A stretch of DNA of 64,000 nucleotides from a virus. This document shows, piece by piece, positions 43,031 through 49,056 of this stretch. Position numbers and translations under genes: made by a program. Location of the stretch: the IMG/VR virus record IMGVR_UViG_3300032311_001249, positions 1 through 64,000 of that record; one strand, written 5' to 3'. Numbering within the stretch: the stretch's first letter is position 1; every line of letters starts with the position of its first letter. The notes below the pieces were generated by a model. The model had not been told where the DNA came from. It searched no databases and saw nothing but the letters and a program-made list of their open reading frames with translations.

Positions 43031-43762
43031 TTATTTTATTAATGGGGTTGTTATATATTTTAAGTTTGAGTTTGAGTTTTCGATTTCAATGTACATGACT
43101 CCGTTGTCATTTAATTTAATCGAGAAATTGTTTTTAGATTTTAATACTAGTTTAAGAATATCCACATCATAAGCTTTTAGAGGAAGACTAGTATCAACAT
43201 TCTCTGCAATTAATATTTTTATATTATCAGAGTGATTGGAGGTAGAGTTCTTATCTCCAAAAAACAAGAAAACGTTTTGATCCTCTTGTTCTATATAAAA
43301 CTTTACAGTATCATTAGAAAATTCTAATGCTTTTCTTATGTTTAAGATTTTTTCCGAACTAATTTCTACTGTGTGATGAACAATAAATTTTTTAAAGTTA
43401 TCTAAATTAAATTTAGGAACTTCTACTAGATTATCATCTAGTAGTCTTATATTAAATCTAATGTCTTTACTAGAAAAATTACAAGAATCATCTGTTAATT
43501 CCAAAGATACAAACATTTCATCACTACCAATACATTGTAGTCCTTTTACAAGTTTTAAAACATTAAGACTAAAGCGATCTTTTACATCACTTATGTGTAA
43601 TGGTTTGTATGTGTTATATAAATAAATTGCTCTTGCTTTTGTAGATATGGAATATAACTCTCCATCACAGCAAAATACTGCTATTTTTCCTTCTTTGTTC
43701 AAGTCGTTTATAGGATTTACAAAATCATTTACAAACTCTTTAGGATTTATCTGAACTATCAT
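43031..43762 (-). CDS. 45: gp45-like sliding clamp
   Basis: 243 aa (T4 gp45 228 aa). It has the clamp order of alternating helices and strands in two pseudo-repeats, with KLVKGLQCIGSDEMFVSLEL and, in the second half, KALEFSNDTVKFYIEQED and LPLKAYDVDILKLVLKS. It is part of the operon downstream of gp32. It encircles DNA to hold the polymerase and, in T4, also activates late transcription, which fits a phage with T4-type late promoters. The ATG at 43760-43762 lies 23 bases inside the end of the preceding gene. Confidence 0.7.
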   Translation of the reverse strand: MIVQINPKEFVNDFVNPINDLNKEGKIAVFCCDGELYSISTKARAIYLYNTYKPLHISDVKDRFSLNVLKLVKGLQCIGSDEMFVSLELTDDSCNFSSKDIRFNIRLLDDNLVEVPKFNLDNFKKFIVHHTVEISSEKILNIRKALEFSNDTVKFYIEQEDQNVFLFFGDKNSTSNHSDNIKILIAENVDTSLPLKAYDVDILKLVLKSKNNFSIKLNDNGVMYIEIENSNSNLKYITTPLIK

Positions 43763-44309
43763 CTGTTATTTCTTGTGGTTGATTAGATTGTGGTATTACA
43801 TTACCACTACTCACTAGTTTAATCAACTTATTAATTAAGGTTTTTTGTGATTTTATAGAATTTTTTAAAGATTTAATTTCTTCTATCAAAGCATCTCTAA
43901 AAGATTGTTCATCTTCCAGATAATTTTTCTTTGCTGGCTGATTGTAGTCTGGCATCTGAAAACCTTGCACAGACTCTATGTTAGAACTAATCATAGGTTG
44001 AACATTTTGTTGTGGTTGAGCGCCAGCAATCTGGGGAACATTCAATAATCTAGCATTTGATGGAGGTAGAGTACCTTCTGGAACAACATAATCTACTGGA
44101 ACATTATTTTGATTATAGTGTTCAGGTGTAGGCGCATACGCTTGTTGTGGATACATTTGCTGTGGCTGAAATTGACCAACAGGTTGTCCATTTCCCAAGA
44201 ATCTTCTAAAATCAGTTCTATTGTATTTGATACTAGAACCTCCTAGAGATTGTCTCATCTCCCTTTCACAAGAAGCCGCTAAAAAAGCTATGTCTGCATT
44301 ATCATTCAT
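43740..44309 (-). CDS. Gln/Pro-rich protein with C-terminal coiled coil (189 aa)
   Basis: Not recognised. The first 40 residues are helical, then a glutamine/proline/asparagine-rich, probably disordered, middle region (QFQPQQMYPQQAYAPTP), then a heptad-type helix with IEEIKSLKNSIKSQKTLINK. The gene lies between gp32 and gp45 on the minus strand. The start codon sits in an inverted repeat that can form a hairpin on read-through mRNA, with a GCTAAATA late box inside it, 5 nt before the ATG. This suggests translation mainly from late transcripts. Confidence 0.6.
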   Translation of the reverse strand: MNDNADIAFLAASCEREMRQSLGGSSIKYNRTDFRRFLGNGQPVGQFQPQQMYPQQAYAPTPEHYNQNNVPVDYVVPEGTLPPSNARLLNVPQIAGAQPQQNVQPMISSNIESVQGFQMPDYNQPAKKNYLEDEQSFRDALIEEIKSLKNSIKSQKTLINKLIKLVSSGNVIPQSNQPQEITDDSSDKS

Positions 44310-44327
44310 AGCTATATTTAGCGGCTT
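44273..44327 (-). promoter_or_regulatory. Start-codon hairpin with internal late promoter
   Basis: The 11-bp arms AAGCCGCTAAA (minus-strand 44327-44317) and TTTAGCGGCTT (44283-44273) are exact complements. A nested 7-bp stem (AGCTATG/CATAGCT, 44313-44307 with 44292-44286) contains the ATG at 44309. mRNA from the upstream gp32 promoter would fold and hide the ATG. mRNA starting at the late box (44315-44322) would lack the first arm and be open. Confidence 0.6.
44315..44322 (-). promoter_or_regulatory. Late promoter box GCTAAATA for the 189-residue gene
   Basis: Two mismatches from TATAAATA, 5 nt before ATG 44309. It lies in the first arm of the hairpin. Confidence 0.45.
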
Positions 44328-44348: not shown

Positions 44349-45275
44349 TTAATCGTCTAACAACGCATCCAATTCATCTTTTTCTGATTTTTTTCCCATA
44401 GGAATTTCATCATCTTCTGGAGTTGAACTTAGATCAATTCTTGGAGAAGATGTTGCGTCATCTTCATTATCACCAACTTCATCTTCTAAGTTTGCACTTG
44501 TTCCAAACCAGTGTTTATCCAAAATATTTTGAATATCTTCTTGAGATTTTACTGCTGGAATAAACTCTGTGAGATCATGAGCACTTTCTAGAATTTTTTG
44601 AATTTCTGAATCAGACAAACCAAGGTCTTCTGCATCATCAAAAGTAGTCTCTGAATAATTGTGGTAGCCTGCTTTTTCTGTGACTTTGACTATAAGACTT
44701 CTTCCTTTGGCAGATAAATCTAGTGCTTTAGCTCCAATTTTTTTACTCATATCACCAAAAATGGCACTATGAATTTTTTTATAAATATCGCTGATAGGAT
44801 TTCCTTCACGATCCACTTGTGCTGGATATAAACCAGCAACAACTTGACCGATTTTTTCCTTTGCATCAGGATCATCTCCATCTACACTGATAAGATAGCC
44901 GTTTACCGCTTGTTTTCTTTGTGGAAGGAGTTTATAACTAGCTTTTTGTTCAGCTTCATCTCCTTTTTCTTTGGCTTTGGTATAGTGATCCCATTGAGTT
45001 TTCTTGTATAAATCTTCTTTTATACCAGCATCTTGTGGTGATCTTCCACCATAAACATAAGTTCCATCCACTCTGCTTTTAAAGCCGATTTCCTTAAATG
45101 TTATAAATGTATTATTGACATTTTTAATGTAAGGAATTAATCTGATTACATAAGTACAATTCTTTTTGAATTTTAATATTCTGGGGTCTCCTTTAAAGAC
45201 TCCTTTTTCTTTTTGAATACTTGTTTCTTCTACTGCTTTTACTTGATTTAATATATTTTCTAGGTTTAATGACAT
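44349..45275 (-). CDS. 32: gp32-like single-stranded DNA-binding protein
   Basis: 308 aa (T4 gp32 301 aa). The first 20 residues form a basic/helical cooperative-binding region. The core has RILKFKKNCTYVIRLIPYIK and SYKLLPQRKQAVNGYLISVD, and the C-terminal tail is acidic (SEKDELDALLDD), as in T4, where it contacts other replication proteins. The T4 zinc-binding cysteines are absent; the equivalent region reads YVYGGRSPQDAGIKEDLY and only one Cys is present in the protein. The gene has a sigma70-like promoter and a real leader. Confidence 0.85.
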   Translation of the reverse strand: MSLNLENILNQVKAVEETSIQKEKGVFKGDPRILKFKKNCTYVIRLIPYIKNVNNTFITFKEIGFKSRVDGTYVYGGRSPQDAGIKEDLYKKTQWDHYTKAKEKGDEAEQKASYKLLPQRKQAVNGYLISVDGDDPDAKEKIGQVVAGLYPAQVDREGNPISDIYKKIHSAIFGDMSKKIGAKALDLSAKGRSLIVKVTEKAGYHNYSETTFDDAEDLGLSDSEIQKILESAHDLTEFIPAVKSQEDIQNILDKHWFGTSANLEDEVGDNEDDATSSPRIDLSSTPEDDEIPMGKKSEKDELDALLDD

Positions 45276-45332
45276 ATTTCTAATTTTCTTTATTTCTTAA
45301 TCAACTACATCCATTTTACTTTCAGTAGTTAT
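45276..45332 (-). promoter_or_regulatory. gp32 mRNA leader with hairpin and A-rich segment (possible translational operator)
   Basis: The predicted transcript begins near 45332. A 6-bp hairpin (AACTAC 45330-45325, GTAGTT 45308-45303, 16-nt loop) is followed by about 27 nt that are almost only A and T with a few G up to the ATG. This arrangement, a structured element followed by unstructured AU-rich RNA, resembles the T4 gp32 autoregulatory operator. Confidence 0.45.
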
Positions 45333-45338
45333 GTTATA

Positions 45339-45367
45339 CTTATACTACAAAATTGCTTTTTGTTCAA
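45339..45367 (-). promoter_or_regulatory. Sigma70-like promoter for gp32
   Basis: Minus strand: -35 TTGAAC (45362-45367), 17-nt spacer, -10 TATAAG (45339-45344). It lies across the end of the preceding gene and leaves a leader of about 57 nt. Confidence 0.6.
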
Positions 45368-46016
45368 GTTTTTTCTTGAGATAATGTGATATTTTTCTTT
45401 TCAATTCTTCTAGATAATTCTGTGTTTTAATACTGCTTTTGTAACAATTGTACATTTTGTTCAAATCTAAATCACTACCATAATAAAGTTCAAATTCATC
45501 TCTGGGCATTTTATATAAAATATCATACATACCCGGTATGCTAAACACAGAATACCATGATATTTTATGTTCTTTTAAATGAATTAGACAATCATTTTGT
45601 GCCACAGAACAATGCTTAGAATAGTCTTCTAATCTTATATTTTTTGATTCACAAAAATTAGCTATAAATTTGTAAGACTCTTTAAAGTATTCAAATTGTT
45701 CTTCTGGGTTGCTTTGTTGAAGAACTTTTATGTATGCTATACAAGTAGAAATTCCTTTGCTGCTAGCATAAAATTTTAATGGAAAAAATATTTTTTCATC
45801 ATTATATATTTTGTATGGAGCATCAAAGAAAAAACTATTGAAAAATGATGGATATTTTTCAAATACTTTTTCTATTTTTTGTAGATATGTTATTTTTTCT
45901 AAATCTTGCTCTATATCAGAAAAATTTTTCTTTGCTCTATATGGTTGATTATTGTTTATTCTGAATGCTCTTAAATATAAATTATATATTCTTTTTTGGT
46001 TTTCTGTCACATTCAT
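45345..46016 (-). CDS. Possible gp59-like helicase loader
   Basis: 223 aa (T4 gp59 217 aa). All-helical, aromatic and lysine rich. The start IYNLYLRAFRINNNQPYRAK resembles T4 gp59 VYKLYLMIKQHMNGKYD, and the segment FFFDAPYKIYNDEKIFFPLK has a similar layout. It lies between the gp41 helicase and gp32, where a loader that joins both would be expected; T4 also has 59 close to 32. The evidence is a loose match and the position. Its ATG overlaps the preceding stop by 4 bases (ATGA). Confidence 0.4.
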   Translation of the reverse strand: MNVTENQKRIYNLYLRAFRINNNQPYRAKKNFSDIEQDLEKITYLQKIEKVFEKYPSFFNSFFFDAPYKIYNDEKIFFPLKFYASSKGISTCIAYIKVLQQSNPEEQFEYFKESYKFIANFCESKNIRLEDYSKHCSVAQNDCLIHLKEHKISWYSVFSIPGMYDILYKMPRDEFELYYGSDLDLNKMYNCYKSSIKTQNYLEELKRKISHYLKKKLEQKAIL

Positions 46017-46279
46017 TTTTTTATTTTCTTGGATTTATTTAAGACTGGATAACGATGAGCCATATATTCTACAACAGAATACCATGAAGTGTCTGTTAAT
46101 TTTAACAACAAGGTTTTTAATTCTGGACTCTTATTTATTAAGATAAATAGAGAAACACATGAAATCGGTTTATTTGATATAAGAGTTATAAAACTTCCAA
46201 ATTTATTTATGGTATCTTCTAATTCTTGATTTATTATATAAGTATTAGCGCACGGAAATATAAAATCTTGTTTGAACAT
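46013..46279 (-). CDS. Hypothetical small protein (88 aa)
   Basis: Not recognised. It contains a central hydrophobic helix pair (SCVSLFILINKSPELKTLLL) and a basic C-terminus. It lies 8 nt after the helicase gene and overlaps the possible loader gene by 4 bases. A gp33-like role was considered, since T4 has gene 33 next to 59, but no sequence feature supports it. Confidence 0.55.
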   Translation of the reverse strand: MFKQDFIFPCANTYIINQELEDTINKFGSFITLISNKPISCVSLFILINKSPELKTLLLKLTDTSWYSVVEYMAHRYPVLNKSKKIKK

Positions 46280-47682: not shown

Positions 47683-47976
47683 TCAAGAACTAACTCTAGA
47701 GAATTCTACTGATATGATGCTGTTCTGAATATTTTTTCCAGAAATGTATTTTTGACTAAACCAATCTTCAAATAATCTTTGGTCTGCTATATTTTGATTG
47801 TAGCTTGCCTTTTTATAAAAAGAATCGAACAGTTCACCTATTGTAAACTGTTCGATTCTGTTAGTTTCTTCGTTTTTTCTTCTTACTGCAATAGCGTTTT
47901 CATCTTCTAATAATATAGTTGTTATTCTAGGTTTGTTTATTAGAGTTCCTGTGGATTTTACTGTTGCCTTTATCAT
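47683..47976 (-). CDS. Hypothetical protein in gene 40 position (97 aa)
   Basis: Not recognised. A small protein with a basic N-terminal strand region (KATVKSTGTLINKPRITTIL), a helix-rich centre with FTIGELFDSFYKKASYNQNI and a C-terminal strand. By order between uvsX and 41 it occupies the position of T4 gene 40, but no sequence match is claimed. Confidence 0.55.
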   Translation of the reverse strand: MIKATVKSTGTLINKPRITTILLEDENAIAVRRKNEETNRIEQFTIGELFDSFYKKASYNQNIADQRLFEDWFSQKYISGKNIQNSIISVEFSRVSS

Positions 47977-48983: not shown

Positions 48984-48993
48984 AAACATTCAT

Positions 48994-49022
48994 ATTATAA
49001 CATATGTGGTATTAAATTTCAA
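48994..49022 (-). promoter_or_regulatory. Strong sigma70-like promoter for uvsX
   Basis: Minus strand: -35 TTGAAA (49017-49022), 17-nt spacer, perfect -10 TATAAT (48994-48999). The predicted start falls at or within a few nucleotides of the first ATG. Confidence 0.75.
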
Positions 49023-49023
49023 C

Positions 49024-49056
49024 AAAAAAGGAGACCTTTTTTTGGTCTCCTTTTTT
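49024..49056 (-). terminator. Terminator upstream of the uvsX promoter
   Basis: A 13-bp perfect stem (GGAGACC/GGTCTCC core, A/T ends) with a seven-T loop. It closes the operon that ends with the 80-residue gene and abuts the -35 of the uvsX promoter. Confidence 0.85.

Follow-up and report, generated by a model that had tools for sequence, protein, structure and literature searches.

A conserved start-codon hairpin that probably silences a replication-operon gene of uncultured T4-type phages on read-through RNA and leaves it active on late RNA

How might a gene embedded in a phage replication operon be kept silent on messages that arrive from upstream and still be translated from late ones? 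The question is raised by a hairpin lying over the start codon of such a gene in positions 1 to 64,000 of IMG/VR record IMGVR_UViG_3300032311_001249 (hereafter the window), part of a 90-kb contig (G000) from a phage with a GC content of 30%. The gene (43740..44309, minus strand, 189 codons) follows, on the same strand and after 39 nt, a gene for a gp32-like single-stranded DNA binding protein (44349..45275, minus strand), and precedes the gene for a predicted gp45-like sliding clamp (43031..43762, minus strand). The preliminary description of this DNA had named both neighbours. The upstream product indeed matches Pfam gp32 (3.6e-10) and PHROG 224, and the clamp, for which no sequence-family match was found, is supported only by its predicted structure (mean pLDDT 61), which matches PCNA and beta clamps with a Foldseek probability of 1.00. 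A search of the gap between gp32 and the regulated gene for terminator-like sites found none. At the other end, the clamp reading frame begins before the regulated gene has finished, and the two share 23 nt (43740-43762), an overlap that is kept in every relative whose contig reaches the clamp and that suggests translational coupling; the clamp would need independent initiation if the regulated gene is off early. The region before gp32 (45276-45345) carries a motif resembling GTAGTATAAGTATA and perhaps a CTGTT...AACAG repeat; both recur in several relatives and together form a candidate gp32 promoter or operator.

The regulated protein (189 aa) consists of an N-terminal helix, a P/Q-rich linker and a C-terminal coiled coil, and its structure model is of low confidence (pTM 0.23). 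It has no PHROG match, no Pfam match above the cut-off and no PDB match of note; a single-sequence search with it also returned nothing, whereas alignment-based searches did find relatives. Because the N-terminus of the aligned proteins, MxDNxDIAFLAAS, is conserved starting at the ATG, the start codon is right. This coiled-coil protein, encoded beside the sliding clamp, is probably one required late only.

In the minus-strand RNA across this start (GAAAAGCCGCUAAAUAUAGCUAUGAAUGAUAAUGCAGACAUAGCUUUUUUAGCGGCUUC), an outer stem of 11 bp pairs the non-coding upstream arm AAGCCGCUAAA (44327-44317) with the downstream arm UUUAGCGGCUU (44283-44273), which encodes F-L-A-A-S, and a weaker extension takes the upstream arm out to 44332. 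Nested within it is an inner stem of 7 bp, in which AGCUAUG (44313-44307), holding the start codon, pairs with CAUAGCU (44292-44286), encoding ..D-I-A.. in the protein. Both stems and the buried ATG are thus as the preliminary description had drawn them. The hairpin has a minimum free energy of -30.1 kcal/mol, compared with -12.4 +/- 2.9 kcal/mol in dinucleotide shuffles (z -6.2; 0 of 200 as good), and when synonymous codons were resampled with the upstream arm held fixed, none of 2000 sequences was equally stable (z -5.5). An 11-bp inverted repeat is by itself not rare in this AT-rich window, which contains 29 with loops of up to 60 nt; the hairpin stands out by its GC content, by the ATG buried in it and most of all by being conserved across ten distinct sequences. 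Folding also indicates how much depends on the 5' end of the RNA: the AUG is predicted to be unpaired with a probability below 0.5% when the RNA begins at -5 or upstream, and of 55-66% when it begins at the AUG. Among the contig ORFs that start behind a late-type promoter box, this gene is alone in having a strong hairpin at its genuine start; a second ORF with a hairpin, at 77874, was rejected as a case, its ATG being internal to a longer gene.

The conservation was assessed by searching IMG/VR with gp32, the regulated gene and the clamp, which yielded some twenty contigs and, counting the window, ten different versions of the locus (nine of them from relatives). The order gp32, regulated gene, sliding clamp is kept wherever a contig reaches far enough, and a hairpin at the ATG is present in all ten versions (z -5.6 to -8.7), with the pairing of the start codon conserved among them. 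In the ten-row alignment, 94% of the cells are paired, compared with 34-51% in slid controls. Five base pairs show changes on both sides: they include a swap from C-G to G-C whose coding side falls on an alanine codon's third base, three alternatives (A-U, G-C and U-A) at another alanine third base, and an A-U to U-A swap at a third position. Compensatory changes link the two arms of the outer stem, and in the inner stem pair 27-58 of the alignment covaries among A-U, G-C and U-A. The rows are related by descent, so that their number overstates the independent events, and the alignment nonetheless indicates clearly that both arms evolved together. The coding side bears the same mark: all ten versions encode the stem alanine with GCG or GCC, although these two codons account for only 9.4% of the alanine codons of the contig. 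Codon resampling in nine versions gave no more than one sequence in 2000 as stable for six of them; the weakest result (100 of 2000) was that of L004, which together with L074 also has a weak inner stem. Comparison with shuffled sequence and a search for compensatory changes in related phages were the checks that had been put forward with the original proposal, and both supported it.

The device is seemingly confined to the family of the window's phage, since in a more distant relative (L079), where a gene likewise stands between gp32 and a clamp-like gene, that gene has no box and no hairpin. Cultured phages gave no match to the DNA or to the gp32 protein, and UvsX and gp23 match them only below 60% identity; a host search through genome contigs found no relative.

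Embedded in the upstream arm is the box GCTAAATA (44315..44322, minus strand), which is separated from the ATG (44309) by 5 nt, with GCTAAA in the stem and the final TA in an internal loop. Several observations indicate that this box, in its CTAAATA form, is the late promoter of this phage, as had been supposed from its sequence. Across the 90-kb contig, 27 ATGs are preceded by TAAATA at a distance of 5-6 nt, compared with about 6 expected from other spacings (p about 5e-10); four relatives likewise show the pattern often, and less often when read backwards, most clearly in three of them. The genes so marked include gp14, the gp21 protease, the tail tube, gp15 / tail sheath stabilizer and a gp5-like hub, and the major head protein gene, gp23, has a late box at 9 nt. 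A homologue of the gp55-type late sigma factor is encoded on the minus strand of the contig near 68895 (E 6e-8 to S-PM2 gp55) and is also present in G001 and G002. In the same gene cluster as the regulated gene, a small gene after the helicase gene (46013-46279) has a late box that overlaps the helicase stop codon and no hairpin, and G001 has a box in the corresponding place; an embedded late gene can therefore do without the device.

The T4 late box spans -13 to -6 (PMC1524935), and with a gap of 5 nt the predicted late start falls on the A of the ATG (44309), that is, the late RNA would be leaderless. Two relatives, L032 and L033, have a spacing of 9 nt and would have a 4-nt leader on the late RNA; in L033 the AUG is predicted to be partly paired even in the short RNA. 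A leaderless start is not peculiar to the regulated gene and appears to be general for the late genes of this family. The phage and its relatives G001-G004 have late boxes 5-6 nt before many ATGs and no Shine-Dalgarno signal. In the window's phage, no such signal was found at the regulated gene, and none above background was found phage-wide, the count of Shine-Dalgarno-like motifs (4 of 81 genes) being at background level. Early genes may be leaderless too. In the five contigs, 33 genes have a sigma70-like TTGA-N19..21-TAnnnT pair whose end falls 0-12 nt ahead of the ATG, among them uvsX (48989-49022) and the helicase (47649), compared with 26 pairs in a control stretch five times longer; AT-richness near starts possibly inflates the first count. 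Just upstream of the promoter-like site and start of uvsX lies a 13-bp hairpin, AAAAAAGGAGACC...GGTCTCCTTTTTT (49024-49056).

Taken with the observed structure, its compensatory conservation, the identity and placement of the box and the absence of a Shine-Dalgarno sequence, these results lead us to propose that the hairpin is an early/late switch like those of T4 genes e and soc, as the preliminary description had advanced, and of I-TevI, a reading to which we assign a probability of roughly three in four. RNA arriving from gp32 and beyond would carry both arms, fold and bury the start codon, which is paired in the computed fold of such RNA, and would offer a ribosome no Shine-Dalgarno sequence by which to gain access. 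Late RNA polymerase with a gp55-type sigma factor would instead start at the CTAAATA box, and the late RNA, beginning at the AUG or a few bases from it, would lack the upstream arm; the hairpin could not form, and the RNA would be translated as a leaderless message. In this scheme we infer the read-through, the exact start site and the translational outcome. The stability of the fold, the compensatory changes and the placement of the box support it as far as sequence can.

An unlikely alternative is that the hairpin damps translation on all messages alike and that the CTAAATA box is not a working promoter. The box does depart, by a G at -13 and a C at -12, from the commoner late box of this phage, ATAAATA, and its C is forced by pairing with the coding arm. 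Because that C pairs with the G of an alanine codon, the CTAAATA form may be a compromise. Against this alternative, CTAAATA is the late motif of phage Aeh1 (PMC1524935); it is invariant in all ten versions, including its last two, unpaired bases, whereas the bases that follow vary, and in most versions it keeps the 5-6 nt spacing seen at the head and tail genes.

Somewhat less probable still is a role in the RNA of the operon, as a processing site, a decay barrier or an attenuator between gp32 and the clamp. The hairpin does sit between two replication genes, and stable stems often mark processing or decay boundaries. A transcription terminator was rejected, there being no conserved T-run after the hairpin on either strand, which counts against the wider reading as well; nor would such a role explain a late box in the arm and an ATG in the inner stem. 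Control by a phage protein such as gp32, which would bind the hairpin and set translation by its own level, is improbable, even though in T4 both gp32 and gp43 repress translation by way of RNA operators located at start regions (PMC3014915): the element lies downstream of gp32 and outside its leader, the fold is stable without protein, and no conserved loop sequence was seen beyond the coding constraint. We consider it very improbable that the inverted repeat, which does span a promoter, is a DNA operator, cruciform or origin unrelated to translation, as its position is tied to the ATG and the reading frame and it contains G-U pairs that favour RNA (column 29-56 is U-G in five versions, and 37-52 is G-U in three). 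Finally, common as 11-bp inverted repeats are in the window, the compensatory changes, the codon-resampling null and the folds of ten versions leave almost no room for a chance complementarity produced by promoter and protein constraints.

Two further hairpins were seen among the sequences analysed. In G001 (42235), G002 (54023) and G004 (27082), the box and ATG of another late-box gene, glycosyltransferase-like (MPTIV...), are covered by a shorter hairpin, for example GGCATGTTTAAATAAAATTAAACATGCC, which is absent from the homologue in the window (53970) and from L058 and L059. A 17-bp terminator-like hairpin followed by T-rich sequence occurs at 47821-47859, inside a 97-aa ORF (47683-47976).

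The early/late switch that we favour would carry a well-known T4 strategy over to uncultured T4-type phages, and the RNA pairing behind it is backed by the comparison of relatives. A broader proposal, which we regard as evenly poised, is that this whole T4-type family has dropped Shine-Dalgarno leaders, that its late promoters, and apparently many early ones, start RNA at the AUG, and that the hairpin closes the gene on leadered RNA and opens it on leaderless RNA. A genome that is seemingly leaderless and free of Shine-Dalgarno sequences would offer a clean natural setting in which to test what hairpins and 5'-terminal AUGs contribute to timing without them.

Among known systems, the closest precedents are T4 genes e, soc and 49, as had been recognized from the outset. 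There, read-through RNA hides the Shine-Dalgarno sequence and/or the AUG, and late RNA lacks the upstream arm (PMC3014915). The window locus is alike in that the start region would be hidden in read-through RNA and a late promoter lies in or beside the upstream arm; in all ten versions the box is in the arm, so placed that a late RNA would lack it. The T4 e leader, which we folded for comparison, belongs to a different gene (lysozyme), and its late RNA keeps a leader with a Shine-Dalgarno sequence, whereas here the ATG itself is in the stem, the late start is predicted at the ATG and there is no Shine-Dalgarno sequence to sequester. Given the and/or wording of the T4 review, this lack makes the locus a variant and does not exclude it from the class. 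Similarly, the genes for T4 I-TevI/II/III and segB and for Aeh1 mobE are late genes embedded in early or middle units, with an adjacent late promoter and a ribosome-binding site that is hidden when they are transcribed from upstream (PMC2988022). The embedded position and the late promoter beside the gene are shared, but those genes encode homing endonucleases, with a Shine-Dalgarno sequence described for the I-Tev genes, whereas here a conserved gene without one stands beside the clamp. With T4-type late promoters in general (TATAAATA; NATAAATA in S-PM2; CTAAATA in Aeh1) this phage shares both the box sequence, TATAAATA-like before head and tail genes, and an encoded gp55-type factor. The commonest box-ATG spacings in the T4 late region examined are 27-29 nt, compared with 5-6 nt in this family, and the T4 spacing is wide enough to accommodate a leader that carries a Shine-Dalgarno sequence. 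Leaderless mRNAs such as that of lambda cI have the start codon at the 5' end and no Shine-Dalgarno sequence (PMC9031893), and the late RNA would resemble them in both respects, the 5'-end start codon being predicted here from spacing only. Unlike in lambda cI, a hairpin switch would be added and the leaderless start is apparently general for the late genes of the phage. The switch would thus follow known T4 logic, and what is new is its form, free of a Shine-Dalgarno sequence and probably leaderless.
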